DNA from: a virus
Length of the DNA: 64,000 nt
Virus record (IMG/VR): IMGVR_UViG_3300035703_000033
Span: 1-64,000 of that record
Direction: 5' to 3' (one strand)
Each line of letters begins with the position of its first letter. The first letter of the stretch is position 1. The position numbers were made by a program, and so were the translations under genes. The notes below the pieces were generated by a model, which saw only the letters and a list, made by a program, of their open reading frames with translations, ran no database searches and was not told the origin of the DNA. Of this stretch, positions 2,715 to 51,411 are shown in pieces.

Positions 2715-3650
2715 ATGAAAAAAATGCTAACTGCGTTAGTAGTGTTGGTGGTTTCGGCGGGAACTCTACCAGCACAAGCAGCCCTAAAAAACTCAACCGT
2801 CAGCACACCTACACTAGCCATTCTTGACACTGCCCTGGATACCTCTATCCCACAGATTAAAGAAAAGCTTGTCGGAGAAGTTTGTATTTTGGATTGGAAC
2901 TCATGCCCAAATGGTCAAGCTTTTATGGAAGGCGAAGGATCATCAGTGCTTCCAATGAATATTTTATCTAATAATAATTTTAATCATGGAACACAAATGG
3001 TATCAGTAGCAATTAATAATAATCCAAATATGAATATTTTATTTGTTCGTATTATTGGTCATACTACAGATGGTCGTAGACAAATGACTAAGGCTACATT
3101 AGTGCCACGAGTACTTGAGTGGCTGTATGCAAATAAGGATAAGTACAATATCCAAGCAATTTCAATGTCACAGGGGCATCATAATTTATTGAGATCTACT
3201 GATTACTGCCCTGTAAATACAGGGTTAGATGCAGCCTTGTTAAAGCTTAACTCTGTTGATGTTCCAGTGATGTTTTCTGTTGGCAATGATAGAGACTATA
3301 GCAGAATCGATTGGCCTGCATGTAACATGTCTCCAAATGTTTTTGCAATTGCTGGATCCGAAAGCTATAATGCACCAGCAACATATAATAATCATGACTC
3401 AAGTAGAACAGATTTCTTCGATTATGGAAATCAAAAGGTTTTGCGTCCAGGTAACGTAGGTGCTTACGCTGCTGGTTCTTCGGTAGCTACTGCATCTTTT
3501 TCTGCAAAGTGGATTGCTTTAAAGTCAGCAAAAAATACATTAACTATGTCACAGCTATCTGAGGTTATTAAAAATACCTCTATTGCAATTAAGAATTCCA
3601 GGGGTGTCTCAGGAAATCTAATTAATCTAGGTGGTGCTATCAATGGCTAA
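2715..3650 (+). CDS. secreted subtilisin-like serine protease (S8 family)
   Basis: 311 residues. A Sec signal peptide is clear: basic MKK, a hydrophobic core and an AQA-A cleavage site at about 22. The S8 triad is recognisable: Asp38 in AILDTALD, His91 in NHGTQM, and Ser in the AAGSSVATASF block at about 255. An Asn in SVGND supplies the oxyanion hole. There is no obvious propeptide. The mature enzyme should be exported or surface-located, where it could process host surface proteins, phage proteins or competing factors. It has its own consensus promoter and reads as intact. Confidence 0.85.
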   Translation: MKKMLTALVVLVVSAGTLPAQAALKNSTVSTPTLAILDTALDTSIPQIKEKLVGEVCILDWNSCPNGQAFMEGEGSSVLPMNILSNNNFNHGTQMVSVAINNNPNMNILFVRIIGHTTDGRRQMTKATLVPRVLEWLYANKDKYNIQAISMSQGHHNLLRSTDYCPVNTGLDAALLKLNSVDVPVMFSVGNDRDYSRIDWPACNMSPNVFAIAGSESYNAPATYNNHDSSRTDFFDYGNQKVLRPGNVGAYAAGSSVATASFSAKWIALKSAKNTLTMSQLSEVIKNTSIAIKNSRGVSGNLINLGGAING

Positions 3651-7388: not shown

Positions 7389-8099
7389 GTGTATGTGATA
7401 ACTGGATCCTCTTCTGGAATCGGTAAAGATCTTTATGGTTTGTTTGTTAAAAACAATATACCAGTTCTTGGGGTTGATATAAAACCAGATGCAGATTACG
7501 TTTGTGATGTTTCTTCTAAAAAAGAATTAAAAGATTTAGTTTTATTTTTAAAAGAAAATTATGAAAAAATAGATGGAGTTGTAATTTGTGCGGGAGTTGC
7601 ATCAAACTCAAGACAAATATTAAAGATTAACTATTTTGGAGCAGTTAATTTACTAAATCTAATTTATGACTATTACAATGAAATAAATGCAGTTATGGTT
7701 GGATCTATTATGTCCGTTACATCACATAAAAATTTTATGGTAAGTAAGAAAATATTAGATTCTGAAGAATATGACGACGAACTAGAAGAAATGTTAAACA
7801 ATATCAAATTAACAGATGCTTCTGCTTATTCTACAGCTAAGTTTTCTTTAACAGAATGGATGAAATATTTTGTTAATAAAAATAAATTTGCAAGAATTAA
7901 TATAATTCACCCAGCTTTGGTTGAGACAGGTTTAGTTAAAGACTTTTTAGGTAGCAAGGTTTTAGAGGTTATATACGGCAAGAGGCTAGTACAAGAGATG
8001 ATGCAGCCTATAGATGTAGCTGAAATTTTATACTTTTTGATCACAGGTGCAAAGGTATTAAATAAACAGTCTATACTTGTAGATAGAGGAATAGTCTAA
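7389..8099 (+). CDS. short-chain dehydrogenase/reductase
   Basis: 236 residues starting at GTG. The Rossmann dinucleotide motif GSSSGIG lies at about 6-12, the CAGVAS segment matches the NAG-type strand, and the catalytic YxxxK is Tyr147/Lys151 (YSTAK). Classical SDRs use NAD(P)H to reduce or oxidise small alcohols or ketones. It lies 1.3 kb upstream of the cytochrome P450, so the two may act on the same metabolite, which is inference. Confidence 0.88.
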   Translation: MYVITGSSSGIGKDLYGLFVKNNIPVLGVDIKPDADYVCDVSSKKELKDLVLFLKENYEKIDGVVICAGVASNSRQILKINYFGAVNLLNLIYDYYNEINAVMVGSIMSVTSHKNFMVSKKILDSEEYDDELEEMLNNIKLTDASAYSTAKFSLTEWMKYFVNKNKFARINIIHPALVETGLVKDFLGSKVLEVIYGKRLVQEMMQPIDVAEILYFLITGAKVLNKQSILVDRGIV

Positions 8100-8101
8100 T
8101 C

Positions 8102-8209
8102 TGTATATCTTGTGGAAAATGTACTATTGAACATAATTTTTCAATAGATGATTCTGTTGATTTAGTGGAAGATTTAGGATTTTTAAATGAAACAAAGAAA
8201 ACTTATTAA
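8102..8209 (+). other. orphan CxxCxxC reading frame without a standard start
   Basis: An open frame directly after the SDR stop codon encodes CISCGKCTIEHNF and about 35 residues in all, but no ATG, GTG or TTG lies upstream of the cysteines in this frame. It could use a rare start, arise by frameshift from the SDR gene, or be a remnant. Confidence 0.3.
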
Positions 8210-8423
8210 TGGTAAGTCTGTTAATGAACTAGATTTACCCATAGGTATAGTTATATTTACTAAATCTCCTGCAAAGTGGAAAATAGTAGATATGGAGACT
8301 GGTGAAGAGTATGTTGGCTCTGAAACAAAACATCCATTTTTTAATAATTTTTTAAAAGAAAAAATTCAAAGTATGGAAATTGGATCTTTAATGAAAGTAA
8401 AAGGAGTTGCAGATGACAGATAA
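8187..8423 (+). CDS. hypothetical protein
   Basis: 78 residues, beta-rich, no cysteine. It contains the segment MKQRKLINGKSVNELDLPIG. No domain recognised. Overlaps the next small gene. Confidence 0.55.
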   Translation: MKQRKLINGKSVNELDLPIGIVIFTKSPAKWKIVDMETGEEYVGSETKHPFFNNFLKEKIQSMEIGSLMKVKGVADDR

Positions 8424-8523
8424 GTGCGCTTATTGTGATGATGAAGGCAGATATTTAGACTTTCATGAAGATCGATTTGTAAGTGTTTGTAAAAAACATT
8501 TATTTATGGAAATAAGTGGTTGA
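8413..8523 (+). CDS. tiny Cys/His zinc-knuckle protein
   Basis: 36 residues with CAYC near the start and a downstream Cys and His (VCKKH), matching a one-zinc ribbon. Its stop overlaps the P450 start region. Confidence 0.5.
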   Translation: MTDKCAYCDDEGRYLDFHEDRFVSVCKKHLFMEISG

Positions 8524-9761
8524 TGAATATTCAAAAACAATTAAAGTCAGAAGATCCAAGCTTTTTACTTGATTTAAGAAATCAGTATGGCAATGCATTT
8601 TGGCTAGATTCTTATTTTTTTGCTTTTGATCCTCAATATGTTAATGAAGTTTATGTTAAGCAATACCCTAATTTCATAAAAGCTGGTGGATGGCATAAAA
8701 TAAGAAAGGGTCTTGGAAATGGCCTACTTGTAAACGAAGAACCAGAACACCTCGTACATAGAAGAATATTAAATCCAGCCTTTCATATAAAAAAAATAGA
8801 ATCTCATTTATATAAAATGCATAAAATTATAAATGAAGAAATATCTGCGCTCTCGCAAAAAGATAGTTTTGACTTATCTACATACTTTTTTGACTTAAGC
8901 TATAAAATATTAACAAATACTATTTTTGATGACGAAGAACTGAGCAAGTCAAAAAAACTTCAAGATGTTTTTTATTCAGTAATGAAAAAAGTTGGTAATG
9001 GTGAAGAGAATGAACCAGGATCTCTAGATGAAGACAGAGAGTATTTATACGATTTTATATCACGTGTTATTAAAAAAAGACTAGATAACGATGAATCTCA
9101 CGAAGACTTTTTGGATTTACTTATAGAGGCATCTGTAAGTAATAACTTATCATTAAAAGATATTACAGACGAAGTTTTAAGTATGATGTTAGCTGGTCAT
9201 GAAACTACCGCAAATACTGTTATTTGGGCTATATCAAATTCTTATAATAATCAATCAATAGTAAAAAAAATAAAAGATGAATCTGATATTTTTGTAAACA
9301 AAATAAATAAAGAAAACATATTAAATATTTGCAAAGAATTAAATTATTCAAAAAATGTAATATCAGAATCTTTAAGGCTTTATCCTCCAGTTTGGTTTAG
9401 CCCAAGACAGGCCCTTGAAGACTGCGTAATTGTTAATACAAAAATACCTAAAGATACCAAAATAATTATAAGCTCGTATGTTTCGCATAGAGATGCCAAT
9501 TATTTTGAAGATCCAAATACATTTATCCCCGAAAGGTGGGATGGTGGATTAGAAGAAAGTCTTCCATCAGGAGTATATTTTCCATTTCATATTGGTCCAA
9601 GAACATGTATAGGATATAGATTTGGGTTTTTGCAGGCTCAGATCACAGTACTAGAATTTTTTAATAAAATAAAAGTAGATTTAGTAGATGGTTTTCCAAA
9701 AACCCTGATACTGGCAACATTAAGACCTCAAAGTAAAATCATAGCTAATATAATTAAGTAA
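8523..9761 (+). CDS. cytochrome P450 monooxygenase
   Basis: 412 residues, a normal bacterial P450 length. The I-helix oxygen-binding motif AGHETTAN begins at about residue 224, the K-helix ExxR is Glu282-Arg285 (ESLRLYPP), the PERW segment follows, and the heme loop FHIGPRTCIG starts at about 355 with Cys362 as axial ligand. All catalytic landmarks are intact, so the enzyme should be active. No ferredoxin or reductase is seen nearby, so it would borrow host electron donors. The substrate cannot be read from sequence. Phage P450s are very rare. The ATG at 8523 follows a TTG that could add one residue. Confidence 0.95.
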   Translation: MNIQKQLKSEDPSFLLDLRNQYGNAFWLDSYFFAFDPQYVNEVYVKQYPNFIKAGGWHKIRKGLGNGLLVNEEPEHLVHRRILNPAFHIKKIESHLYKMHKIINEEISALSQKDSFDLSTYFFDLSYKILTNTIFDDEELSKSKKLQDVFYSVMKKVGNGEENEPGSLDEDREYLYDFISRVIKKRLDNDESHEDFLDLLIEASVSNNLSLKDITDEVLSMMLAGHETTANTVIWAISNSYNNQSIVKKIKDESDIFVNKINKENILNICKELNYSKNVISESLRLYPPVWFSPRQALEDCVIVNTKIPKDTKIIISSYVSHRDANYFEDPNTFIPERWDGGLEESLPSGVYFPFHIGPRTCIGYRFGFLQAQITVLEFFNKIKVDLVDGFPKTLILATLRPQSKIIANIIK

Positions 9762-27415: not shown

Positions 27416-28006
27416 ATGTTTTATAATGATGACAAAGTTACAGCTATAAGAGATGGTGTATGGTTGTATAGAAATTTTATTTCAAAAGAAGAATGTGATG
27501 CTATTGTTAGTAAAGTAGAACAGTTGACTGAAAAAGATTGGCAAGACGGTTGGACAAGGCATCAAGGCACTTTATTTTATACTAATAATCCAGAATCAGA
27601 AAAAGCAATAGCTGAATGGTGGAGCGATAAAGTAAGTCCTCCCATACTTATTCCAGAAGTTACAAAGGTTAACAAACAGCTAAAAGAATTATTTTCTCCA
27701 GACCTATTCTTTTTGCCAGAATATAAGGTTGTACGATTAAAGCCAGGACAAAATATGAAGTCACATAGAGATAATAGGTCAGAGAATGCAGCGGTAGAGG
27801 TTAAACAAGAATTTACAATTAACTGTGCTTATACGCTATACTTAAGTGAATTTTCTGGAGGAGAAATTAATTATCCAGAGCTTGACTATAAGCATATACC
27901 TAAACAGGGAGACCTTATAATACATTCTGGATTAGTCCTGCATGAAGTTTTTGATGTAATTGATGGATTAAGATATACAATAACAGGATGGCTTTTAAAT
28001 AAATAA
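27416..28006 (+). CDS. 2OG-Fe(II) oxygenase (prolyl-4-hydroxylase-like)
   Basis: 196 residues. Double-stranded beta-helix with the iron facial triad His118-x-Asp120 (SHRDN) and His176 (LVLHEV), and Arg186 (GLRYTITGW) to bind 2-oxoglutarate. The family uses O2 and 2-oxoglutarate to hydroxylate proline, other residues or nucleobases. It stands apart from the oxygenase cluster at 42-47 kb and carries Arg where some of that cluster carry Lys. Confidence 0.88.
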   Translation: MFYNDDKVTAIRDGVWLYRNFISKEECDAIVSKVEQLTEKDWQDGWTRHQGTLFYTNNPESEKAIAEWWSDKVSPPILIPEVTKVNKQLKELFSPDLFFLPEYKVVRLKPGQNMKSHRDNRSENAAVEVKQEFTINCAYTLYLSEFSGGEINYPELDYKHIPKQGDLIIHSGLVLHEVFDVIDGLRYTITGWLLNK

Positions 28007-31895: not shown

Positions 31896-32246
31896 ATGGC
31901 AGTACAAAAGAATTTTGAAGTAGATCAAAATGCTACTTTTACCTTTGAGGTTGATTATACCGAAGAGGATGAAGTCACGCCTATCGATCTTACTGGAGCA
32001 TCCGCTAAAATGCAGGTGCGTGATACCAAGGGCGGAAGTAAATTAGCTTTTACTCTAACATCCCCTTCTGGTGGAATTACTATTGACGAGCCAAATGGAA
32101 AATTGACTATTAAGATCACTCCTACTCAAACCAATAAAATGTTTTATCCTAAATCAGCATATGACATAATGGTAGTAGACTCAAACGGCAATAAAATAAA
32201 ATTGCTTGAGGGTTTTATGACACTGAGTAGGAGTGTGACTATTTAA
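31896..32246 (+). CDS. BppU-like baseplate/tail protein
   Basis: 116 residues from MAVQKNFE, with AGGAG site. IDLTGASAKMQVRD, a hallmark of upper-baseplate BppU N-terminal domains, is followed by beta strands. Likely a structural adaptor of the tail tip. First gene of the fibre array. Confidence 0.65.
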   Translation: MAVQKNFEVDQNATFTFEVDYTEEDEVTPIDLTGASAKMQVRDTKGGSKLAFTLTSPSGGITIDEPNGKLTIKITPTQTNKMFYPKSAYDIMVVDSNGNKIKLLEGFMTLSRSVTI

Positions 32247-32695
32247 TGGCAGATATAGTAAAAGTAATAGAGCAAAAAAATAAAGTAATTGTTTCTTCTC
32301 CAGGACCTCAAGGGCCAAGGGGTAAAACCATTCTTAGTGGAAATGGTTTACCTGCCTCAAATTTAGGTTTAGAAGGAGATTTTTATTACGATAAAGATTC
32401 TGCTGCATTTTATGGACCAAAGCTTTCAGACTTAAGTTGGTCAGATGCAACAGTAATTGAATTTGCTACAACAGAAAATGTATCTTATTCAACTTCGTGG
32501 GAGCTTTCTCAAGTTGTTGGCCCAATAAATGGTGAATACTCTATACAAATAACACATAACTTAGGATACAGTCCAAGCGTTACGATTAAGTCAAGCTCTG
32601 GAGATATTGTTGAAACTGGTATCAACTACGACTCACTTAATTCACTAACACTTGTAATGGCACAACCATTTTCTGGAACAGTATACCTATCATAA
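32246..32695 (+). CDS. tail-fibre protein with short collagen-like stretch
   Basis: 149 residues. SSPGPQGPRGK at about 17-27 is a brief Gly-X-Y segment; the C-terminal half (about 85-149) is a beta domain (THNLGYSPSVTIKSSSGD). Probably part of the adhesion tip. Confidence 0.65.
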   Translation: MADIVKVIEQKNKVIVSSPGPQGPRGKTILSGNGLPASNLGLEGDFYYDKDSAAFYGPKLSDLSWSDATVIEFATTENVSYSTSWELSQVVGPINGEYSIQITHNLGYSPSVTIKSSSGDIVETGINYDSLNSLTLVMAQPFSGTVYLS

Positions 32696-39608: not shown

Positions 39609-40946
39609 ATGGCAATTAATAAAAGATCAGGAACAGGTTCTTCCGCACAGGATAACTTTATCGGACCAAATCCAGTTACTGGATTAACAGCAACAGATGT
39701 TGGTTCTGGAAGAGCATACAACGATGGTAGAATTGATTTGTCTTGGACAAACCCGTCTACTGGAAATACTCCAACAGGGTATAGAATTATTCGTGGTGGA
39801 ACTGAAATAGCAACAGTAGCTCATCCTAATAATACATACTCAAATACTGGGCTTTCTTCAGCCACTTCATATTCGTATGTAGTTCGTGCATATGATGATT
39901 ATGCTACAGCAGCAGATTCAAATACTGCTAGTGCTACAGCAACAACAGTTCCAGCTACAATGAGTGCTCCAAGTGCTACAGCTGGAGTTGATAAGGACAC
40001 ATTGTCTTGGACAGCACCAGCAAATGGTGGTTCAGCAATTACACTATATAGATGGACATCAAGCGACGGAAAGACTGGAACATCTACTGGAACATCAGTT
40101 GATATTTCTCAAGAAGCAAACACTGCACAAACATATCAAGTTAGAGCAGAGAATGCTAACGGAGCAGGAGTGTATTCTGGAAATTCAAATCAGGTTACAA
40201 CCCAGGCCCCAAGCTTCTTCGGTCCTCCAAGCTTCTTCGCCCCTCCAGGGTTCTTTGCCCCTCCAGGGTTCTTCGCCCCTCCAGGGTTCTTCGCCCCTCC
40301 AGGGTTCTTTGCCCCTCCAGGGTTCTTCGCCCCTCCAGGGTTCTTCGCCCCTCCAGGGTTCTTCGCCCCTCCAGGGTTCTTTTCTCCACCAAGCTTTTGG
40401 AAGTCTGTTGGAATTAACACTTTGATTAGAACACCTGGCGGAATGGTTTCTGCAGGACAGTTGGAAATTGGAGATGAGGTAATTGGTTTACGTATACCAG
40501 GTATACCAGATAACTATTGGTTACTTGATGACGGTTCATATGGCTCATACTCAGATTTTGTAATATCAGAAGAGCAATTAAATAATGCAGAAGAGACAAT
40601 TGTAACTGTTACAGGTAAGAGACTTCATGAGAATGCTGGAGCTGCAGCTGTTAATGGTGATATTTATACTATTAACCACTACATTCTAGCCAAGAGAAAT
40701 GGTGAAATTAAGTCTTTGAATGTTAAGGATTTATTGTCAGATGATCTTATATATAACTATCAGACAAAAGATTTTGTTCCAATAGAATCTCTTGAGATAA
40801 ATGAAGAAATTACAATTCAATCATATTCTATAAACGTAGAGCCATGGGACTTCTACTTTACAGAAAACGGTTTAACCTTTGATATGCAGGCGCTATCAGA
40901 GTCTCTGTCTGGATCTGATGATCCAGATGGTTCTGGCCCCCTATAA
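39609..40946 (+). CDS. FN3 / FFAPPG-repeat / Hint-like tail protein
   Basis: 445 residues. Two fibronectin-III-like domains (about 20-115 and 118-198) are followed by a hydrophobic repeat SFFAPP, seven GFFAPP and one GFFSPP (about 203-262). Then a Hint-like domain (about 270-430) contains GINTLIRTPGGMVSAGQLEIGDEV, YTINHYILAKRNG and VEPWDFYFTENG. The Hint Cys1 position is Ser and the C-terminal His-Asn is missing. Probable adhesion protein of the tail tip. The PPG triplets face the adjacent prolyl-hydroxylase-like genes. Confidence 0.7.
   Translation: MAINKRSGTGSSAQDNFIGPNPVTGLTATDVGSGRAYNDGRIDLSWTNPSTGNTPTGYRIIRGGTEIATVAHPNNTYSNTGLSSATSYSYVVRAYDDYATAADSNTASATATTVPATMSAPSATAGVDKDTLSWTAPANGGSAITLYRWTSSDGKTGTSTGTSVDISQEANTAQTYQVRAENANGAGVYSGNSNQVTTQAPSFFGPPSFFAPPGFFAPPGFFAPPGFFAPPGFFAPPGFFAPPGFFAPPGFFAPPGFFSPPSFWKSVGINTLIRTPGGMVSAGQLEIGDEVIGLRIPGIPDNYWLLDDGSYGSYSDFVISEEQLNNAEETIVTVTGKRLHENAGAAAVNGDIYTINHYILAKRNGEIKSLNVKDLLSDDLIYNYQTKDFVPIESLEINEEITIQSYSINVEPWDFYFTENGLTFDMQALSESLSGSDDPDGSGPL
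40230..40391 (+). repeat. tandem 18-bp repeats encoding (FFAPPG)n
   Basis: About nine units, nearly identical, differing mainly by C or T in the third base of one Phe codon. In-frame expansion or contraction is likely among strains. Confidence 0.9.
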
Positions 40947-40953
40947 AATATAG

Positions 40954-41493
40954 GTGAAATTTAAAGTAACAAGTACTGGTCAGGAGATAGAGAAATCTAT
41001 CTCCTATCAGTCTTTCCCAGAAGAGTTATATAATGAGGGTATATGGGGTCATTTTGCATTTATAGAAGATAAAGAAATGAATATTCGTGTTATATGTTCT
41101 GCTTATAACAATGATAGATATTCTCCAGGTACTGTTGTCGTATCGAATAAAATATTTAATGATTTTCCAATTGCTCAAAGTGCATGGAATATAAGTAATA
41201 AAATTAGTAGAATGTATGTTGATCCGTTTTATAGAAATAAAAAGGTTGCAACTTATAGTGTTATAACAAATGATATGTTAGCTAGAAAAATGGGTTATGA
41301 AATATGGTCTAATATATACGGAGAAAAAGGCGGTACTATAGCAGGCGACCAACTTTATAATAAAATATACGATTTAGGTTTTGAGGTAAAGAAAGCACAG
41401 ATAGACCTAAACGATATTTTTCAATATAGAAATTTTTCACACCCAATACATTACATAGATAAGAGACCAGTTTATGATGAATCAAGTCTATAG
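40954..41493 (+). CDS. GNAT-like acetyltransferase
   Basis: 179 residues, GTG start. ISRMYVDPFYRNKKVATYSVI matches GNAT strand 4 plus the acetyl-CoA pyrophosphate loop (R-x-x-K-V-A). Acceptor unknown. First of the enzyme genes after the fibre array. Confidence 0.65.
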   Translation: MKFKVTSTGQEIEKSISYQSFPEELYNEGIWGHFAFIEDKEMNIRVICSAYNNDRYSPGTVVVSNKIFNDFPIAQSAWNISNKISRMYVDPFYRNKKVATYSVITNDMLARKMGYEIWSNIYGEKGGTIAGDQLYNKIYDLGFEVKKAQIDLNDIFQYRNFSHPIHYIDKRPVYDESSL

Positions 41494-42049
41494 CAAAACC
41501 AAATTTTTAAAGAAAGAAGTCAATTTTGACTTTGATATAAAAAATATAAAAGATATGTCTTTTAAAAAAGATGAGTTATTTTTTGTTGATAATGGAAATC
41601 TTAATAAAAATAACGAAATTGTTTATAAATCAAAAAATATATTTACTATATACAGCAGAGACATCCACAGCCTATATAAAAGTATATCTAGTCTATTAGA
41701 TGAATCTTGTGATTTATATGAAATAAAAAAAGATATACAGAACTATATGATTTATGGCAAAATTTCAGAGTATGGTGAACATAATAGAGGAATATGGTAT
41801 GATTTTCCAGGAATAAATATTCCATACTTACACGGGTTTTTCTTCTTTGACTCCAGCTATGAGGTTAACTTTAAAAATCAAAATAATTTAGTTAAAGAAT
41901 TAATAAATACCAATACAATTATTATCAATAAGCCGACAGATTTAATAAACATTAAATCAGAAAAAGAGTCAGAGGTAATTGAATTCTATATAGTCCCTAT
42001 TGATATGTTAAAACATAATGAACCAGGCGTATGGGTTCCAATATTATAA
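41474..42049 (+). CDS. unknown protein, possibly degenerate dioxygenase
   Basis: 191 residues. YLHGFFFFDSS and INTNTIIINKPTD hint at a double-stranded beta-helix, but the iron triad is not convincing. Overlaps the GNAT gene. AT-rich and Asn/Lys-rich. Confidence 0.45.
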   Translation: MMNQVYSKTKFLKKEVNFDFDIKNIKDMSFKKDELFFVDNGNLNKNNEIVYKSKNIFTIYSRDIHSLYKSISSLLDESCDLYEIKKDIQNYMIYGKISEYGEHNRGIWYDFPGINIPYLHGFFFFDSSYEVNFKNQNNLVKELINTNTIIINKPTDLINIKSEKESEVIEFYIVPIDMLKHNEPGVWVPIL

Positions 42050-42058
42050 AACAAATGA

Positions 42059-42064
42059 TATAAT
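42059..42064 (+). promoter_or_regulatory. extended -10 promoter
   Basis: TGA-TATAAT (hexamer 42059-42064), followed about 24 bp later by GTG/ATG with GAGAAAGAGG site. Confidence 0.55.
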
Positions 42065-42084
42065 CATATCCAAGAGAAAGAGGC

Positions 42085-42786
42085 GTGATGTTAGAAAATG
42101 CAGAGTACCTAGCAACTGGAATAGTTGTATATAGAGATGTTTTTAAAAAGGAACATAACTATGTAGAGAGATTAGAAAAGGCTTTAGGGTCAGTAGAAGA
42201 AAATAGATACGGTTGGAAGCCAGGGTATACTGGCTACGGAGCAAAAAATCTTAATTATAGAGATTGTTTTGATTTTAAGATTAAGCATAATGAAGACGGC
42301 TCTCTAAGCGCACATATGGACTGTATTAAAAAAGAAGATCAAAACGAAACAGACAAAGATTTAATTAGAATTTGGGATGATGCATATTATGCACAGGTTC
42401 CACCAGTTGACGACTATAGAAGTATGTTTAGCCTGGCACCATTAAAATATTGGGAATCTTTTAATTTTATTAAGTATGGACCAGGACAGCATTTCCAGGT
42501 ACATTCAGATCATGGATATTCTTATACGTGTGTTCTTTCTTCAGTTGGGTATTTAAATGATGATTATGAAGGCGGAGAGCTTTATTTTGATAAGCTTAAC
42601 CTAAAGATTAAGCCAAAAGCAGGAGATCTTTATCTATTCCCATCTTCATATGTATACTCTCATGCTGCAATGCCAGTCACCTCTGGTACTAAGTACTCTA
42701 TAGTTACAATGTTAGATTATTTAGAAACAGCACATACTCCAGAATATAGAAACCTGGAAGCAAGATACTCTAAAAGCCTTCTTTAA
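42085..42786 (+). CDS. 2OG-Fe(II) oxygenase 1 (P4H-like)
   Basis: 233 residues from GTG 42085 (ATG 42088 is equally likely). Facial triad His-x-Asp (HFQVHSDHG, about 140-142) and distal His in YSHAAMP (about 193). The 2-oxoglutarate anchor is Lys (GTKYSIV), as in collagen prolyl-4-hydroxylases. YLNDDYEGGELYF and KPKAGDLYLFP are strongly P4H-like. First of five tandem apparently intact paralogues. Confidence 0.85.
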   Translation: MMLENAEYLATGIVVYRDVFKKEHNYVERLEKALGSVEENRYGWKPGYTGYGAKNLNYRDCFDFKIKHNEDGSLSAHMDCIKKEDQNETDKDLIRIWDDAYYAQVPPVDDYRSMFSLAPLKYWESFNFIKYGPGQHFQVHSDHGYSYTCVLSSVGYLNDDYEGGELYFDKLNLKIKPKAGDLYLFPSSYVYSHAAMPVTSGTKYSIVTMLDYLETAHTPEYRNLEARYSKSLL

Positions 42787-43481
42787 TGTATTCTATAACA
42801 GCCTATAATATAGGAGGTTTAGCTACCATTAGTCAGTCTCCAGTAAAAAGAGATTGGATGGAAGATACATATGATAAGCATGCCTATAATTGTTTCCCAG
42901 TAACAATTACAAATTCATTAGGGTGGAGCATATCTTTTCCAGAAGAAATTTCTTTTATTTGGGATGGCATATCAGATAGTTCAGCAGACCACGTTAAAGT
43001 TTTAAGTGGAGAAAAGTATGTTTCAACTAGAAGAGCTAATGGAACCATAAGCTTTAATTCTGGATTTGGTTTTAAAACACAAAATGACTTAAGCTTGTTA
43101 TGCATGCCAACACCAAACCAGTTTATAAGGGGTGCTCAATGTTTTACTACTTTAATATCAACATCTTTTTTTAATGGAGACTTCCCTATAGTTTGGAAAA
43201 TTACTGAGCCTATGATAAAAATAGTAATTCCTGCAAACACGCCAGTTGCTAATATTATTCCTATATCTTTAACAGAATTACAAAATTCTGAAATAAATTT
43301 TGAACCAGTAAGCAATATGCCATCCAGTAAATGTCCACCAGAATTTGCTATAAAAGCTGTTGAGAAAGCATACCAGACTGGCGGATGGACAAATTTTTAT
43401 AGAGATGCAGTAGATGCATGCGGGAACAGTATTGGGTCGCATGAAATAAAATCAATAAGATTGAAGGTAAATAATGCCTAA
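42786..43481 (+). CDS. DUF6065-like protein
   Basis: 231 residues. The order of an SLGWSI strand, FIWDGISD, SLLCMPTPNQF and IPANTPVANIIPISL resembles DUF6065, an uncharacterised family seen in phages beside oxygenase genes. The start overlaps the stop of oxygenase 1. Function unknown. Confidence 0.55.
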   Translation: MYSITAYNIGGLATISQSPVKRDWMEDTYDKHAYNCFPVTITNSLGWSISFPEEISFIWDGISDSSADHVKVLSGEKYVSTRRANGTISFNSGFGFKTQNDLSLLCMPTPNQFIRGAQCFTTLISTSFFNGDFPIVWKITEPMIKIVIPANTPVANIIPISLTELQNSEINFEPVSNMPSSKCPPEFAIKAVEKAYQTGGWTNFYRDAVDACGNSIGSHEIKSIRLKVNNA

Positions 43482-44187
43482 AATAACATTTCATTCAAAT
43501 AAAACTTATAATCAACCAGGACATGAATTAAATCCTAAACCAGCAAAGAAGAGCGTTCCTCAATGGTTTTCCGAATCAAGCAGGTACTGGTTTCCAGAAG
43601 TAAAAGACTCTCTTTCATTTAAAGCTTGCCCAGCATTAGTAGATGCATTTCTTGCAGGTTATGTTTTAAAAACTCCATGCGACATATATTTCCAAAAAGA
43701 GTCTAGCTCTGATGTTTTTAAGCACACTGATATATTTAAAGTTTATAAAGAACCAGGATATGATGATTTTTGTTGTTCAAGACCAGATATGCCAGGGTTT
43801 CCCAAGCCACACGGATTTGATAAACATTTTCATTGGTTTCCTAATTGGATGCCAGGGCTTGAGCCAGGCTACAGCGCTTTATATGTTCATCCATTAAATC
43901 GTTTTGATCTACCGTTCATCACCGTCTCTGGTATAATTGATAACGATAAGATGAATACCCCTGGTTTAATGCCTTTCTTCCTTAAAGAAGGTTTTGAAGG
44001 TCTGATTCCAAAGGGAACTCCATTTGTTCAGATAATTCCATTTAAAAGAGAAGATTGGGAATCAGAAGAGCAGATGTATTCCATAGAAGAGATATTTGAA
44101 AGACATAATTATCAAGCAAATAAGTTTAGAGTTCCAGAGGGCGGGGCTTATAAGAAAAAAGTTTGGTCAAGAAAGAGGTATGATTAA
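43474..44187 (+). CDS. DUF6065-related protein
   Basis: 237 residues. KSVPQWF, FKACPALVDAFLAGYV, LYVHPLNRFDLPF and IPKGTPFVQIIPFKRE match the same family pattern, likely a paralogue of the preceding gene. It contains several His residues, possibly metal-binding. Confidence 0.6.
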   Translation: MPKITFHSNKTYNQPGHELNPKPAKKSVPQWFSESSRYWFPEVKDSLSFKACPALVDAFLAGYVLKTPCDIYFQKESSSDVFKHTDIFKVYKEPGYDDFCCSRPDMPGFPKPHGFDKHFHWFPNWMPGLEPGYSALYVHPLNRFDLPFITVSGIIDNDKMNTPGLMPFFLKEGFEGLIPKGTPFVQIIPFKREDWESEEQMYSIEEIFERHNYQANKFRVPEGGAYKKKVWSRKRYD

Positions 44188-44906
44188 TGAATATGAAACG
44201 TTGGGACACTAGCGGTAATTTAGCTAACTTTAATGCTAAGTCTATAACTCCATCTGGATTTTTTGGAGATTCAGATAAAAATATAGTTGAGGTTGAAGAT
44301 TTTATTACAGAAGAAGAAAATAATATATTTTTAGAGTTTGCAAGAAAAAATTCTTCTTTTGATGAAACACCAACAGAGTTTAATGAAAATGGCAATCTTA
44401 TTTATGACGAAAGACCGTGGGTAAATAGAGTAGCAACTGGAGAGACTCTATTGAAGAGTGGACCACACGTGATACCAGTTCTTACACATATGGTTACAAG
44501 ATTTCAAAAAATAATTGAAGATTTTTTTGATGTAGAAGTTACTCCTACAGGACCAGCAATTGTTAGGTGGCCAGTTGGAGCAAGACAAGAGCCACATGCA
44601 GATAAAGAGTTGCATGAGGGCCCAGATGCAGGAAAACCAAATTCTTTCCCGTGGTATGATATTGGAACTGTTTTTTATTTTAATGATGATTATGAGGGTG
44701 GAGAATTATATTTTCCAAAACAAGGTGTTGAGTTTAAGCCAAAAGCACGAGCTGCATATTTTTTCCCAGGCGATATGAACTATATTCATGGAGTAAGGCC
44801 AATAACAAAGGGATGTAGATACACTGCTCCATATTTTTGGACAATAAATAAGTTACCAGAAAAATATAATGGCCCAAAGGAGTTTAATTATGTGCCACAT
44901 AACTAA
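44187..44906 (+). CDS. 2OG-Fe(II) oxygenase 2 (P4H-like)
   Basis: 239 residues. HADKE supplies His-x-Asp, NYIHGVRPI the distal His, and GCRYTAPYF the 2OG-binding Arg. FNDDYEGGELYF repeats the paralogue signature. Reads as active. Confidence 0.85.
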   Translation: MNMKRWDTSGNLANFNAKSITPSGFFGDSDKNIVEVEDFITEEENNIFLEFARKNSSFDETPTEFNENGNLIYDERPWVNRVATGETLLKSGPHVIPVLTHMVTRFQKIIEDFFDVEVTPTGPAIVRWPVGARQEPHADKELHEGPDAGKPNSFPWYDIGTVFYFNDDYEGGELYFPKQGVEFKPKARAAYFFPGDMNYIHGVRPITKGCRYTAPYFWTINKLPEKYNGPKEFNYVPHN

Positions 44907-45615
44907 ACATAAGGAAGAATGTTTTACAATTGAGCATTTTTTAACAGAAGAAGAATGTAAAGCTATTATTTCGTATACGGAGTGGTTAGCTAGCAATAAC
45001 ATTTTAGAGTGGAATCAAATATCGTTTTATGATTCATTTGCAATGGGCTTTTGGGAAGAGGATCCAACTGGTGGCTGTGAGTTATTTGGACTTCCCAAAA
45101 ATTATTTTCATGGTGTTTTAAAACAAAAAATAAAAGATGCTTGTGAAAATGCTTTAGGAAAAGATTTAGCTGAGGTTAGTTATCATGCTCAAAAATGGAA
45201 AGATGGAGCATATGCATCATTTCATTCCGATAACTCTGACGAGCATGGAAACCCTTCAGAGTTTGAAAGAAGTAAGTATGCTGCATTTATCTATCTTAAT
45301 GAAGACTTTAAAGGTGGAAATTTAAATTTTAAACATCACGATGTAAACATAAAACCAAAAGCTGGTATGCTTGCAGTTTTTGCAGGCGGGTATACAAATG
45401 AACATGAAGTTACAAAAGTTCATGGAGGTACTCGTTATACCGTAGGATCATTTTGGGATAACGCAGATGCTGTTTATACTGAAGAGCAAATTAAAGAAAG
45501 AGAAGAAAGATTAAAGAAAACTAGAGCTGAGCAAGATTTAACTTATCAGCAGTGGGCAAAGCAAAAAGAATTGGGAATAACTCAAGACTATGTTGGAAAA
45601 TACGGTGAAGTATGA
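44890..45615 (+). CDS. 2OG-Fe(II) oxygenase 3 (P4H-like)
   Basis: 241 residues from the ATG at 44890, spaced 8 bases from AAAGGAG. FHSDNSD is the His-x-Asp pair, NEHEVTKV the distal His, and GTRYTVGSFW the Arg. A Lys/Glu-rich helix (about 205-240) is added at the C-terminus. Confidence 0.85.
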   Translation: MCHITKHKEECFTIEHFLTEEECKAIISYTEWLASNNILEWNQISFYDSFAMGFWEEDPTGGCELFGLPKNYFHGVLKQKIKDACENALGKDLAEVSYHAQKWKDGAYASFHSDNSDEHGNPSEFERSKYAAFIYLNEDFKGGNLNFKHHDVNIKPKAGMLAVFAGGYTNEHEVTKVHGGTRYTVGSFWDNADAVYTEEQIKEREERLKKTRAEQDLTYQQWAKQKELGITQDYVGKYGEV

Positions 45616-46469
45616 ATAGAATAGAAATTTATCCAAGAGTAGTTGTGTATAAAAATACGCTACCTAGATGGAAAGAGTATGTAGATCTTTTAAAAAAGTC
45701 TGAATCAGAGCCACCAAGATACTACTTCAAGGATTGGGAAGATTGGTATGGTTTTGGAAAAATGATGAATCTATCAATGAATAATCCAAATGTTTCATAC
45801 AATATTGATTCTGATGATGAATATGCAAAACTACAGCAAGATTTTTTACAAGATGTAACAGATGCCTATTATAATGTTACAGCAGATTATGTAAAAACAT
45901 ACGGCATCTCTTTACCAAATTGGGTCAATAATGGTATATCGATTTGCAAATATTGGGAAAGCCCTAAGCAAAATGAAATGGCAATGCACTATCATACAGA
46001 TTATGTTGGCGCAAATGCAGATGCCCCAGGTAAAAAATTTGCTATTACTTGTACAATTTATATTAATGACGATTATGATGGCGGAGGACTATCATTTCTA
46101 AGGGAGGATACTGGTGATGTTATTGACTATAAGCCAGAGGCTGGAGATATAGTTGTATTCCCATCAGGAGATCCTATTACTGGAGCTTCTCATTATTTCC
46201 ACGGCGTAGATAGAGTCGATAATGGAGAAAAGTATTTTATAAGATGTTTTTGGTCATATGAGTTTGAAGGTACAAAAGAGTGGCATGAAGGTGTTGAAAA
46301 GTATGGAAAAGATATATGGGAAGATATGCAGCTTGAAAAAATGAAAGAGGATATAAAGTCTGGTAAATGGCATAGATATCTTGTCATGCCTGGTGAGGAA
46401 GACCCAAAGAAAGAAAGGTCTACCCCATTCTTTTTAAGGGATAAAGATGCTTATAAAAAAATTAGATGA
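45612..46469 (+). CDS. 2OG-Fe(II) oxygenase 4 (P4H-like)
   Basis: 285 residues, longest paralogue. HYHTDYV gives His-x-Asp, HYFHGVDR the distal His, and GEKYFIRCFW has Lys at the anchor position. A C-terminal extension follows. ATGA overlap with oxygenase 3. Confidence 0.85.
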   Translation: MNRIEIYPRVVVYKNTLPRWKEYVDLLKKSESEPPRYYFKDWEDWYGFGKMMNLSMNNPNVSYNIDSDDEYAKLQQDFLQDVTDAYYNVTADYVKTYGISLPNWVNNGISICKYWESPKQNEMAMHYHTDYVGANADAPGKKFAITCTIYINDDYDGGGLSFLREDTGDVIDYKPEAGDIVVFPSGDPITGASHYFHGVDRVDNGEKYFIRCFWSYEFEGTKEWHEGVEKYGKDIWEDMQLEKMKEDIKSGKWHRYLVMPGEEDPKKERSTPFFLRDKDAYKKIR

Positions 46470-47061
46470 GAATATTATCTATTATGAAAATGTATTAGAT
46501 AACCCATATGAATTTATTGAAAAAATAGAAAGTTTAGATATATCTAATAATAATTCAAGCCATATTAGCAAGTGGGAAAAGTGGAGTGCAAGTAATGCTG
46601 ATCAGCAGTACGGCATTTCTAAAAATGGTAGATTTTCTAATATGCATTACAGCACTGCGGAAGATATAGAAACCTCATTAATTTCGTATAAAATTAAAGC
46701 AATATCTGATTTATGTTTTGCTAACTATAAAGCTAACACTGGAGTGGATATGCTTAAGTTACCAGATTACTTTAGTATTAGGAAGTATGATACTGGAGCA
46801 GACATGGGAAAGCACGTGGATTCAGAGGATCCAACAGATAAGTCTCACCCAGTAGTTTCTGGAGTTCTTTATTTAAATGATAATTACGAGGGTGGAGAAA
46901 TTTACTTTCCAGAACAAGAAATTAAAATAAAGCCAAAAGCTGGAAGTATGATCATGTTTCCATCCTATAGACCATACTTTCATCACCCATTAGCAATTAC
47001 TAAAGGAAATAAATACATGATTCCATTTTTCTGGTATCCATTAGAAACGGTTTGGGAATAA
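46447..47061 (+). CDS. 2OG-Fe(II) oxygenase 5 (P4H-like)
   Basis: 204 residues. GKHVDSED gives His-x-Asp, PYFHHPLAI the distal His, and GNKYMIPFFW a Lys anchor. LYLNDNYEGGEIYF is close to the other paralogues. Confidence 0.85.
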   Translation: MLIKKLDENIIYYENVLDNPYEFIEKIESLDISNNNSSHISKWEKWSASNADQQYGISKNGRFSNMHYSTAEDIETSLISYKIKAISDLCFANYKANTGVDMLKLPDYFSIRKYDTGADMGKHVDSEDPTDKSHPVVSGVLYLNDNYEGGEIYFPEQEIKIKPKAGSMIMFPSYRPYFHHPLAITKGNKYMIPFFWYPLETVWE

Positions 47062-47068
47062 ATGTATA

Positions 47069-47728
47069 ATGAAAGCAAAACAAAATTTTTGGTCAACTCT
47101 ATATGAAAGGTCACAAACAAAAATGATGTACTTACCCAATGTTCTTGGAGATAGCTGTGTTTATTTTAGAAATACTATCTCTGAACCACAAAAATTAATA
47201 GAATTTATTGAAGAGTGCGAAAAAGATCAATCAACACATAAGTACCTAACCAGCTGGTCAGAGATGACTGACTCTATTATGTTTAAAAAGTTTTTGCTTG
47301 AAGAAAGCGATATATCAAAAAGGAATAAACAAAAGCTTCTTTATATATATAATAGCTTTAAGGCTGGGATAGACTATTGTAAAGAACATTATTCTAATTT
47401 TGCTAAACAAGAAACATCAGATATAAAGCCTTTATATCTATTTAAGTCTAAGCCACTATCAGAAGGAGAAAGAGATCAGGAGTACTCTTTGCCAGATAGC
47501 TCACAATCTATTTCTGTTTATTTGATGATGAATACAGAAGCTGAAGGTAAGGCATTCTGTTTAAATAAAGAAAAGTCTATATATATCTACCCAGAGCCAT
47601 GGAGTATTGTTATGGTTCCAGATAATCTTTCACACTCAGAAGGCATCAATGCTAATAGTGAGTTGTATTATTTAAAGACAAAGTTTGAGCTAGGGGCAGA
47701 AAAGCTGCAATGCAGTAATCTGCTATAA
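47069..47728 (+). CDS. degenerate 2OG oxygenase paralogue
   Basis: 219 residues. The strand order and the YIYPEPWSIVMVP and LSHSEGI blocks align with the active paralogues, but the His-x-Asp pair is not found (LFKSKPLSE in that place) and the 2OG anchor is replaced (ELYYLKT). It keeps a full reading frame, so it may be a non-catalytic partner rather than a pseudogene. Confidence 0.6.
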   Translation: MKAKQNFWSTLYERSQTKMMYLPNVLGDSCVYFRNTISEPQKLIEFIEECEKDQSTHKYLTSWSEMTDSIMFKKFLLEESDISKRNKQKLLYIYNSFKAGIDYCKEHYSNFAKQETSDIKPLYLFKSKPLSEGERDQEYSLPDSSQSISVYLMMNTEAEGKAFCLNKEKSIYIYPEPWSIVMVPDNLSHSEGINANSELYYLKTKFELGAEKLQCSNLL

Positions 47729-47735: not shown

Positions 47736-49421
47736 ATGTCATATTTAGCATCAGTACTCAAAGACTACCCAGTGGGATTCTGGCCACTTTCTTCAAGTGC
47801 AGAGGATAAGTCTGGATGCGGAAATGACGGGGTTGTAAGTGGCACACATCAGTTCGGCAAAAATTCTTTAATACCGTACTCTGGTGAATCAACAAGAATA
47901 GCTGGATCATCGTATATATCAATACCGCTAGATAAAGATTATTATTCTTCTTCTGTTTTGCCAGCAATTGCAAATAGCTCAAGTTCAACAAAAGAGTTTA
48001 CTATAGAGCTATGGTTTAAGCCAGAGTCTGATTTCTTACAAGAGTCTCCTTTGTTTGCTGACGTACTAAACGGCACTGGAATTTTTTATCAAAACGGTAA
48101 TATAATATTTAAAATAGAAGACGTTTCGTTAGAGTATACATTAAGCAATATAAATAAATCTTTATATATCGCATGTATTTATGGTGTTAATAGTATGTCA
48201 ATATATGTTGACGGAGAAATTGTTGCTACAAAAAATACAGACGGTTTTAAATTTGAGGCAGAGGGTGTAGATTTTCAGGTTGGCCCAGTCGTTGGACCGT
48301 CGGATTCATTTTTAATTAATGGAATTTCTGTTTACAGGTATGCATTAAGCTCAGATCAAATATATGGAAGATTTTCTAACTTATATAATATACCTCCAAT
48401 ACAAATAGCAGATCCAAATAATGGTTCATTATTTGAGATTAAAAATAAGGCATATGGTAGAAAATTTACATTTAGTTATCCAATCGATAAAGACTGGTCA
48501 GAAATAGCAGAAAGCCCTGTAAGGCGCAATGAAGGTTACGGGTACATAGAACTAAGCCAAACTGATGGCGAGGTCTCTAAAGAGCTTATAGACGTTCTAT
48601 CAATACCATCTATGGAAGAGTACAACCACTCAGTAATAGAATGGGAGGGAGACAATGGAGTATCAATCTATATATCTCAAGATAACTCTACTTTCAATGA
48701 ATGCAAAAATGGTCTTCCTCTTCCAATATCTGATTTTACAAAAAGTGTTATTTATTTAAAGATAAAATTTACTTCAAGTAATGCTCAGCGCTTTAATCCA
48801 AGATTACATAAATTAAATATATCTTTCTTTAAAGATGTAAGAATTTATTCAGAAAATAGCGCCAGCTATATTGCAAAGTCAACGGGCGGAAGCCATGATT
48901 TTGGTTTCACGTGGAACAATAAGCCAATACTCTCACAGTCTAAATATAACGGTCTACGGGCAGAGGCTAAATTCAGTTTATACACAGACAGAGATGTCCA
49001 TACCCTAGAAACCTTTTATACACCAGATTCTCTTGAGGCAGGATCATTATTTGATCAGCTTTCATGGAATGGGGCGGGAACACTAAGTAATCCCAATATC
49101 CTAGCCCTATATATCAACGGAGAAGACAAGACATCAGAAACATCAGTCTCTGGCTTATTTGAGGTAGGACAATTACACCATGTTGTAGTAGTCCTATCAG
49201 ACTCAATTACTGAAGAAATAGTATTTAATGATGGATCAAATGAGGCCCTATATCAGTATATAACCATATATGAGAGCCAAATGGATGCAGTTACTGCACA
49301 GGCTCATTATGAGATGTATGTGGATAGTGTCTCTACTATTGCCGTCGGCGGGTCACTGTCAATGACAGAAAATTCAATAAACTACTATGATAATGATTGG
49401 GTAGTGATACAAAATATTTAA
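47736..49421 (+). CDS. LamG-like (concanavalin A-type) tail protein
   Basis: 561 residues. FTIELWFKPES followed by IYVDGEIVATKN is a LamG/laminin-G jelly-roll signature (about 20-210); a second weaker copy lies at about 375-560 (VVVLSDSIT, IYESQMDAV). Probably a carbohydrate-binding tail component. Leaderless start. Confidence 0.7.
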   Translation: MSYLASVLKDYPVGFWPLSSSAEDKSGCGNDGVVSGTHQFGKNSLIPYSGESTRIAGSSYISIPLDKDYYSSSVLPAIANSSSSTKEFTIELWFKPESDFLQESPLFADVLNGTGIFYQNGNIIFKIEDVSLEYTLSNINKSLYIACIYGVNSMSIYVDGEIVATKNTDGFKFEAEGVDFQVGPVVGPSDSFLINGISVYRYALSSDQIYGRFSNLYNIPPIQIADPNNGSLFEIKNKAYGRKFTFSYPIDKDWSEIAESPVRRNEGYGYIELSQTDGEVSKELIDVLSIPSMEEYNHSVIEWEGDNGVSIYISQDNSTFNECKNGLPLPISDFTKSVIYLKIKFTSSNAQRFNPRLHKLNISFFKDVRIYSENSASYIAKSTGGSHDFGFTWNNKPILSQSKYNGLRAEAKFSLYTDRDVHTLETFYTPDSLEAGSLFDQLSWNGAGTLSNPNILALYINGEDKTSETSVSGLFEVGQLHHVVVVLSDSITEEIVFNDGSNEALYQYITIYESQMDAVTAQAHYEMYVDSVSTIAVGGSLSMTENSINYYDNDWVVIQNI

Positions 49422-49484: not shown

Positions 49485-49826
49485 ATGGATATCAAAAGAA
49501 CTGGATTTAAAGTTAATGACCACGAGTCAACGCTTGGCATATACGTTTGGAAAATGCCAGATGGAAGATGGATTGGCGACGACGATGGAAATTTTCTTTC
49601 TATAACCTCAAAAGAAGGTAATAGAGAAAGAATGAACTTGCTTGCTGACGCAGTTAGATCATACGGTATTTATGAAGGACAACCTCACTTTTTATCTGGT
49701 CGTAGAAAGATTGATGACGAAGAATTTGAGTATCAACAGCAGAGATTGAAATGGGGTCTAACTCCAGATCCTCTTGATATTGGTGTATACAAGGATAGTC
49801 TTAAGGAGTTAAACGGTGGCAAATAA
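49485..49826 (+). CDS. hypothetical protein upstream of portal
   Basis: 113 residues, Arg/Asp-rich, with PDGRWIGDDDGN. Overlaps the portal start. Small proteins of this size often precede actinophage portals; role unknown. Confidence 0.6.
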   Translation: MDIKRTGFKVNDHESTLGIYVWKMPDGRWIGDDDGNFLSITSKEGNRERMNLLADAVRSYGIYEGQPHFLSGRRKIDDEEFEYQQQRLKWGLTPDPLDIGVYKDSLKELNGGK

Positions 49827-51411
49827 TATGATGGAATTTGAAGATGAAAACAACTCTGTCGAAGAGATTGAGATTTCAAATACAGCAGACTGGATGAAGT
49901 TCTCTTCTCCAGTTGTGCAAACAAGCAATGATCCATTTAAGATTGAAAATGAAGAAATTTTAAAGGTATCAGGAATGTCTCCTACTTTCAGAAGAAAAGT
50001 AAGTAGAGATTTGCAAAAACGTTTTACTGGAATTGATGGAGCACAGACACAGCAAAATCTTTTACAGCAGGCAGTCACTGGCTATGCAATGTTTGATTTG
50101 GTTGAGCCACCATATAACCTTGAATACCTATCTTCTATTTATGAAATATCTCCATATAACTACGCAGCTATTAATGCGAAGGTGGCAAATATTGTAGGAT
50201 TAGGTTTTGATTTTATTGAAACAAGAAAAACAAATGATGCTCTTGATGAAATTGCAGATGAGAAGCAATTAGAAAGAGCACGACGAAAGCTAAGCAGAAT
50301 TAGACAAGATCTACATGAGTGGCTTGAAGATTGCAATGATGAAGAAACATTTAAAGAAACATTAATTAAGTTTTATACCGACGTTGAGTCTACAGGAAAT
50401 GGATATCTTGAAATCGGAAGAACTACATCTGGAAAGATTGGATATATTGGACATATCCCATCCAAGACAATGCGTGTAAGAAGATTACGTGATGGTTTTA
50501 TTCAGTTGCTTTATGGCAAGGCTGTGTACTTTAGAAACTTTGGCGATCAGGAAACACCAAATCCTATAGCTGGTGGACTTGATAGACCAAATGAAATTAT
50601 TCATTTGAAGAAGTATACCCCTAAGAATAACTACTATGGAATTCCAGATATTATTGCTGCTCAAAATGCAATGGCTGGAAATGAGTTTGCAGGAAAGTAC
50701 AACCTAGATTATTTTGAAAATAAGGCAGTTCCAAGATATATTATTACTGTTAAGGGTGCAAAGCTTTCATCAGAGTCAGAGCGTAAGTTGCTTGAATTTT
50801 TCCAAGTAGGATTGAAGGGTAAAAACCACAGATCTCTGTACATACCTCTTCCAGCAGATTCTCCAGACTCAAAGGTTGAATTTAAAATGGACCCAATTGA
50901 GGCGGGGTCTCAAGAGTCATCATTTAATATTTATCGTACATCAAATAGAGATGAAATATTAATGGCTCATAGAACTCCTATTAATAAGATAGGAACACCA
51001 GCTGGTGTTAATTTGGCAGCAGCTAGAGATGCCGATAAAACATTTAAAGAGCAGGTTTGCAGACCAGCTCAAGAAAATTTAGAAAAGAAATTAAATAAAA
51101 TTATTGAAGAAATGACTGATGCCTTGAAATTAAAATTCAATGAATTAACCTTGACAGATGAGGATACTCAGTCAAAAATTGATGAAAGATATTTAAGATT
51201 CCAGGTAATGACACCTAATGAAATTAGATTAAGAATGGGTCTTGTGCCAAGAGAAGGCGGAGATAAACCAGTAGATTTAGCAGCCCAGGCTGCTGAGGTT
51301 AAAGCTCAGGCACTTCAGACCAGAACTAGAGACCAGGAAAGATCCTCTAACTCCCCAGATATTTCGGGGGATGGTAGAAATGCAAAGGGAGATGGAAGAC
51401 AAGTTGAGTAG
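49816..51411 (+). CDS. portal protein
   Basis: 531 residues from GTG 49816 (an ATG lies at 49828). PSKTMRVRRLRDGFIQL, FGDQETPNPI and PINKIGTPAGVNLAAARDADKTFKEQV are PBSX/HK97-type portal features. It forms the dodecameric DNA gate at one head vertex. No terminase is encoded upstream in the window. Confidence 0.85.
   Translation: MANNMMEFEDENNSVEEIEISNTADWMKFSSPVVQTSNDPFKIENEEILKVSGMSPTFRRKVSRDLQKRFTGIDGAQTQQNLLQQAVTGYAMFDLVEPPYNLEYLSSIYEISPYNYAAINAKVANIVGLGFDFIETRKTNDALDEIADEKQLERARRKLSRIRQDLHEWLEDCNDEETFKETLIKFYTDVESTGNGYLEIGRTTSGKIGYIGHIPSKTMRVRRLRDGFIQLLYGKAVYFRNFGDQETPNPIAGGLDRPNEIIHLKKYTPKNNYYGIPDIIAAQNAMAGNEFAGKYNLDYFENKAVPRYIITVKGAKLSSESERKLLEFFQVGLKGKNHRSLYIPLPADSPDSKVEFKMDPIEAGSQESSFNIYRTSNRDEILMAHRTPINKIGTPAGVNLAAARDADKTFKEQVCRPAQENLEKKLNKIIEEMTDALKLKFNELTLTDEDTQSKIDERYLRFQVMTPNEIRLRMGLVPREGGDKPVDLAAQAAEVKAQALQTRTRDQERSSNSPDISGDGRNAKGDGRQVE

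Follow-up and report, generated by a model that had tools for sequence, protein, structure and literature searches.

A conserved cassette of 2-oxoglutarate oxygenases tied to an aromatic-proline adhesin in phages: a candidate system for prolyl hydroxylation

What do five oxygenase genes do in a bacteriophage, set in a row behind the gene of a proline-rich adhesin? The locus that poses this question occupies positions 39609-47728 of a 64,000-nucleotide stretch of viral DNA (the window, bases 1-64000 of the 109,615-bp IMG/VR virus record IMGVR_UViG_3300035703_000033). An adhesin-like gene is followed there by a co-directional cassette of genes, most of which overlap or lie close together; five of them encode 2-oxoglutarate (2OG)-Fe(II) oxygenases, here called ox1 to ox5. 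An earlier note on the window had proposed, by analogy with collagen, that these enzymes hydroxylate tail proteins or host surface polymers. Gene order, conservation, catalytic residues, purifying selection and co-occurrence, all observed directly, together with a predicted Hint fold, support a dedicated and conserved phage cassette that would hydroxylate prolines of the adhesin tract, a reading to which we assign a probability of about 0.6. All features described below from the adhesin to the portal gene are on the plus strand.

The adhesin-like protein (39609-40946) contains FN3 domain(s) (Pfam fn3, E 2.1e-7), a proline tract and a C-terminal domain related to Hint and bacterial-intein-like (BIL) domains. 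The tract, which is the proposed target of hydroxylation (40212-40391), is a tandem repeat of period 18 (40215-40381, 9.3 copies, score 292 in Tandem Repeats Finder). It consists of ten consecutive FFxPPx units, exactly eight of which end in PPG, in agreement with the roughly eight Pro-Pro-Gly triplets counted in the earlier note. The FN3 domains, the position among fibre genes and a weak PHROG match to the tail category argue for a role as virion adhesin.

The last 187 residues of the adhesin were modelled by AlphaFold with a pLDDT of 83.8, and a Foldseek search with this model retrieved the BIL domain 2lwy as the best match (E 2e-7), followed by inteins and Hedgehog. As judged from the model, the C-terminal domain (40392-40943) has the Hint fold. 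Unlike the BIL/Hint domains with which it shares this fold, it is degenerate: in an alignment with relatives that bear the Cys and His-Asn residues, Cys1 is replaced by Ile and the terminal His-Asn by Phe-Asp, and self-processing of the window copy is therefore not expected. The same holds for the window's branch overall, where the nucleophilic Cys is Ile or Val and the terminal pair is Phe/Tyr-Asp; both elements are retained in distant relatives (for example L350, L033 and L030). Across the adhesins surveyed, the N-termini (FN3, PASTA or other) and the C-termini (Hint with Cys, a short tail, a Cys-rich tail or a chaperone-like domain) vary while the tract persists, and the proline tract is the constant part of these proteins. 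A second adhesin in one contig (L013:1456-3628) combines PASTA domains with PPVVVNTD repeats and a Hint domain in which Cys and HN are intact, and a further ox1-like oxygenase gene lies directly downstream of it.

The five enzymes are ox1 (42085-42786, HSD...H...K, Pfam E 1.2e-15), ox2 (44187-44906, HAD...H...R, E 1e-6), ox3 (44869-45615, HSD...H...R, E 3.7e-11), ox4 (45612-46469, HTD...H...K, E 1.9e-10) and ox5 (46447-47061, HVD...H...K, E 2.1e-11). All score above the curated cut-off of PF13640 (30 to 58.7 bits against 27), and neither the HxD...H iron triad nor the Lys or Arg anchor of 2OG varies among the 18-19 orthologues of each enzyme. The catalytic residues are intact, in line with the earlier note, and its count of three Lys-anchored enzymes was also correct: the Lys anchor of collagen and PBCV-1 prolyl 4-hydroxylases (P4H) is present in three of the five (ox1, ox4 and ox5), and Arg takes its place in ox2 and ox3. 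The dN/dS ratios of the cassette genes are well below 1, although the values are rough because dS is near saturation.

Among solved structures, the P4H-like ox1 matched the Bacillus anthracis P4H (E 1e-7) and, more weakly, the P4H entry 5c5t, which we take to be the PBCV-1 enzyme. The match of ox2 is a near tie between prolyl 3-hydroxylase 1 (E 8e-8) and P4H (E 1.5e-7), ox3 is closer to prolyl 3-hydroxylase 1 (E 3e-9) than to P4H (E 4e-3), and ox5 matched both PKHD and P4H. The Arg-anchored pair thus leans towards prolyl 3-hydroxylases (P3H) and ox1 and ox5 towards P4H, a division that suggests different sites on the Pro-Pro dyad. In the phylogenetic tree ox1 to ox5 form five separate orthologous classes, which fits the proposal that their redundancy reflects several sites or substrates.

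The order of these genes is strongly conserved. A search with the C-terminal domain of the adhesin yielded 18 viral contigs, every one of which encodes an FFxPPx tract, and the five oxygenases follow in identical order in all 17 contigs that are long enough (the eighteenth ends inside the gene after the adhesin). The eleven-gene order from the adhesin to a pseudo-oxygenase at the end of the block is kept in the 17 contigs with two kinds of change: the DUF6065 gene duf1 is missing from L012 and L013, and in L014-L018 a further gene separates ox3 from ox4. It encodes a short-chain dehydrogenase where it was read (L014:13736-14425), and L015-L018 have an equally large gap at this place. When the portal gene (49816-51411, inferred in part from its position beside capsid genes) was used as a neutral anchor, the oxygenase cluster was found in 39 of 40 relatives; the exception, L222, also lacks the proline-tract adhesin. 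In one cassette copy (L132:874-3365) the oxygenase genes are in short broken frames, owing either to sequencing errors or to real decay.

The association was also approached from the repeat alone. The IMG/VR samples used here are drawn from among the matches listed, their loci are kin by descent and their contigs are fragments. A DNA pattern for the repeat only matched at least 120 stretches of IMG/VR, and all 39 sampled records with FFxPPx repeats contain PF13640 genes, usually 4-15 each. Among 98 distinct aromatic-proline-tract adhesins from fetched loci, counted as proteins with 2.5 kb of downstream sequence visible, 90 are followed on the same strand by an oxygenase gene no more than 2.5 kb away, against a background of 9 of 317 windows more than 8 kb away in the same loci. 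An apparent oxygenase that overlaps the adhesin of L109 most probably arises from out-of-frame reading of the repeat and was set aside.

Starting from the enzymes, an oxygenase-motif DNA pattern gave 118 further loci among the matches listed. A proline-tract protein was found within 3 kb in seven of the ten testable clusters of at least five oxygenases (eight more are cut off at the edge) and in none of the 52 testable loci with one or two oxygenases (Fisher p 2.4e-7, to be read with the kinship of the loci in mind). Of the three clusters without such a protein, L288 revealed its adhesin on extension, the edge of the L339 contig carries the Hint end of an adhesin, and L257 resembles bacterial DNA. 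Four clusters, L288 among them, served as a prediction test: when they were extended past the locus edge, an (FFPP)n-type adhesin appeared immediately upstream in each of them. The bacterial-looking contig encodes a FAD-dependent halogenase-like protein and several oxygenases (L257:1351-9372); the enzyme family probably serves another, metabolic purpose there.

The linkage is not confined to the relatives of the window phage. No homologue of the portal or capsid genes is detectable in the records G035, G036 (98 kb), G045 (205 kb), G055 (162 kb) and G062, and these records or their lineage-mates (lineage B) encode a proline-tract adhesin together with ox1-like, ox2-like and DUF6065 genes in another arrangement, the ox2-like gene being convergent in some of them. 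In the tree, lineage B enzymes group with ox1 (98/99) and ox2 (92/94, slightly short of the starred level) of the window. Recurrence across unrelated lineages thus marks ox1, ox2, DUF6065 and the aromatic-proline adhesin as a common core; ox3, ox4 and ox5 are additions in the window's lineage. The link between a proline-repeat adhesin and an oxygenase cluster therefore holds in many phages of at least two types and from both sides.

The collagen logic that had prompted the idea applies to one half of the system. X-Pro-Gly, the expected substrate of P4H, occurs eight times in the window tract; across the adhesins surveyed, however, only 632 of the 1409 register units have Gly at the sixth position of the repeat, and the same enzymes accompany (FFPP)n adhesins that lack Gly. 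Since Gly is often absent and FFPP tracts occur, the collagen analogy is valid for the enzymes and not for the substrate, and the feature common to the tracts is the aromatic pair with Pro-Pro rather than PPG. A collagen triple helix was considered for the tract and ruled out by the missing Gly periodicity of three: FFAPPG has Gly at every sixth residue, whereas collagen requires it at every third over many triplets. The short Gly-X-Y stretch noted earlier in the fibre gene at 32246-32695 (plus strand) is present and, on reading of the translation, comprises only about three triplets (SPGPQGPRGKT). Longer collagen-like (Gly-X-Y) proteins beside an oxygenase cluster (L290:618-1919 and L349:6124-6849) are possible extra substrates.

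Judging from the neighbourhood and the nearest structures, we infer that the reaction is hydroxylation of peptidyl proline. The adhesin, with its FN3 domain, aromatic-proline tract and Hint-fold domain, would be made late together with the tail genes, and the co-directional oxygenases are probably co-transcribed with it. A minimum set would comprise the Lys-anchored, P4H-like ox1 and the Arg-anchored ox2, which resembles both P4H and P3H, together with DUF6065 as a putative partner. These enzymes would hydroxylate prolines of the FFxPPx or FFPP tract, and possibly neighbouring residues, inside the infected cell and ahead of virion assembly. In the virion, where the adhesin presumably resides, the tract would probably be stiffened as a polyproline-type stalk or supplied with hydroxyls for further decoration at the point where virion meets host. 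A fuller version, in which P4H-like and P3H-like enzymes with the pseudo-oxygenase and DUF6065 partners form a multi-enzyme machine dedicated to the aromatic-proline repeat and produce dense 3- and 4-hydroxyproline in a non-collagen stalk of unrelated phages, is tentative, and we lean slightly against it.

Several observations weigh against hydroxylation of the tract. Eight of the 98 adhesins have no nearby oxygenase; some of these are second adhesin copies with the cassette elsewhere on the contig (e.g., L056 and L084). Lone oxygenases without a proline tract are the commonest case for the family, and the ox4-like clusters L344, L292 and L236 show no tract in view. Family membership alone is therefore no predictor of this role; the clustered set of ox1, ox2 and DUF6065 is. 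No match to ox4 was found among solved structures, and the predicted model of DUF6065, considered as another possible oxygenase but not supported as such, yields only a weak dUTPase-like match. A cassette neighbour of other chemistry, the short-chain dehydrogenase of L014-L018, would also fit work on a metabolite. Additional oxygenase genes and a second DUF6065 gene lie in the replication/right-arm region with no aromatic-proline-tract protein adjoining. Finally, most records belong to one broad lineage with portals 53-100% identical, so that the counts are not independent and only a few lineages are clearly separate. Oxygenase clusters without a PPG-type protein, which the earlier note had named as evidence that would speak against it, do occur if PPG is taken strictly, but not if Pro-rich tracts are considered: nearly all phage clusters of at least five oxygenases with visible flanks have one.

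Some of these points could be accommodated if the enzymes modify another target at the host interface, such as a host surface polymer, another tail fibre, a lipid or a secondary metabolite, with the adhesin and the enzymes sharing a receptor-recognition island. Cassette proteins of uncertain chemistry, the dehydrogenase of L014-L018, the P450, short-chain dehydrogenase and weak sulfotransferase-like genes elsewhere in the window, and the other oxygenases of this phage without an adjoining tract are all in line with such targets. We consider this unlikely, since the association tracks the proline tract (none of 52 lone-oxygenase loci against 7 of 10 clusters), the tract and the enzymes stay while the end domains of the adhesin change, L222 lacks both, and peptidyl-prolyl hydroxylases are among the solved structures closest to ox1, ox2, ox3 and ox5. 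Linkage by descent only, in which one successful lineage carries both elements and the neighbourhood is uninformative on the substrate, would suit the shared portal (53-100% identity) and gene order of most FFxPPx records. It is quite improbable given lineage B (including the 98-205 kb records), where the adhesin and orthologous ox1, ox2 and DUF6065 genes stand in another arrangement and portal and capsid homologues are not detectable, the blind extension that found the adhesin in four of four cases, and the purifying selection on all genes.

The remaining two explanations place the substrate away from the virion. A bacterial PHD-like 2OG prolyl hydroxylase acts on EF-Tu, and the phage enzymes might likewise have host proteins such as EF-Tu or those of the ribosome as hydroxylation substrates and so alter host translation. 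Another 2OG prolyl hydroxylase acts on uS12 (PMC4396695). Nevertheless, such a function does not explain why five paralogues are tied to an adhesin that varies and lies among late tail genes. In the synteny and portal surveys the cassette had no conserved association with early or host-takeover genes, and we regard this explanation as highly improbable. The chance that these are enzymes of nucleic-acid modification or repair is smaller still, and very slight. The names of PHROG 2297 and 274 ('DNA endonuclease'-type) attach to cassette proteins, most likely by annotation carry-over; all five oxygenases belong to PF13640, the sole AlkB-family match is weak (2OG-FeII_Oxy_2 with ox5, E 0.034), and the nearest solved relatives are peptidyl hydroxylases.

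Compared with known systems, the cassette enzymes share the PF13640 fold family with collagen-type P4H (B. anthracis 3itq/5hv0 and the PBCV-1 P4H), which provide the best solved matches of ox1 and whose HxD...H...K site is also found in ox1, ox4 and ox5. The PBCV-1 P4H is a virus-encoded enzyme with peptide substrates (Eriksson et al. 1999, as cited in PMC9301287 and PMC7019647). The present system, known from its genes, differs in belonging to bacteriophages, in having five paralogues in one late block tied to one adhesin, and in a tract of FFxPPx or (FFPP)n in place of Gly-X-Y collagen. Collagen prolyl 3-hydroxylase 1 (8k0e) is the top match of ox3 among solved structures and ranks about equal with P4H for ox2, both ox2 and ox3 being Arg-anchored; however, its catalytic core alone aligns, without the leprecan helical domain, and regiochemistry is not readable from sequence. 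Phage collagen-like proteins, which adjoin some cassettes (L290 and L349), are likewise repetitive, hydroxylatable and tail-associated, but the adhesin tract lacks Gly at every third position. The PHROG 61 2OG-Fe(II) oxygenases of marine phages share the protein family and fold class and are treated mostly as widespread single enzymes (PMC12774648), in contrast to the fixed multi-enzyme cassette with a partner protein described here.

One survey calls the viral use of P4H cryptic (PMC9301287), and we found no earlier report of the tract-oxygenase linkage in the open-licence literature (subscription journals and preprints lie outside this scope). A fixed partner gene turns the role of viral oxygenases into a testable enzyme-substrate question and may answer why phages carry such enzymes; it suggests that these phages chemically modify the proteins with which they bind the host, so as to harden or decorate them. 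If hydroxylation of the tract is correct, bacteriophages would have a dedicated system for virion-protein hydroxylation, the infectivity of abundant freshwater phages would depend on O2, iron and 2-oxoglutarate, and the DUF6065 family would gain its first context.

The other cassette genes fall between and behind the oxygenases. The first conserved gene after the adhesin (40954-41493, kept by synteny) had been called a GNAT enzyme; it is GNAT-like by eye only, as the window gene has no profile match and the best hit, Acetyltransf_7 at E 0.11, comes from one orthologue. The next gene, c2 (41474-42049), is conserved in synteny with 36 invariant columns in nine orthologues; hhalign gave no relation to oxygenases when it was considered as a second pseudo-oxygenase. 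Both DUF6065-like proteins were correctly recognised before: the product of 42786-43481, a core protein common to unrelated phages, belongs to PF19541 (E 5.8e-28, 98.4 bits against a cut-off of 26.6) and is found in 16 of 19 records and in lineage B, and the syntenic product of 43474-44187 has no Pfam match and shares PHROG 7084 with it. The gene at 47069-47728, previously taken for a decayed paralogue, is instead a conserved pseudo-oxygenase under purifying selection, related to P4H by profile (hhalign probability 95.6, E 1.3e-8) and, according to the alignment, devoid of the metal ligands; it is 76-82% identical in close relatives, with dN/dS of 0.06-0.10. The conserved block ends before the portal with a Laminin-G/lectin-like protein (47736-49421; Laminin_G_3, E 1.6e-12; synteny).

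A WhiB gene at 313-627 of the window (Pfam E 7.6e-10) indicates an actinobacterial host; WhiB has served as the criterion for this host in freshwater actinophages (PMC6802176). The phages that carry the adhesin and the cassette come from fresh water and probably infect actinobacteria. The FFxPPx repeat pattern had no match in 84,980 bacterial and archaeal genomes, and thus neither a host nor a prophage could be assigned from it. In a collection of 50,697 named-phage records the adhesin and ox4 had no match, and the matches of ox1, all below 60% identity, were confined to oxygenases from cyanophages and a small number of other phages.

Some further tract proteins and genes were noted in passing. 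Short FFGPPG proteins with Cys-rich tails and no adjoining oxygenase occur in L072, L077, L112, L144 and L056, and phages with such proteins may encode another tract protein at a distance, accompanied by oxygenases. The window record contains at least four further 2OG oxygenase genes (window 27416-28006; record 89919-90779, 102859-103740 and 106504-107067), and its second DUF6065 gene is at record 91071-91763, outside the cassette. By reading of translations, the left arm of the window encodes a candidate secreted subtilisin-like protease (2715-3650), and the pair at 7389-9761, a gene resembling short-chain dehydrogenases and, behind it, one for a cytochrome P450-like protein (413 aa), is unusual phage cargo.

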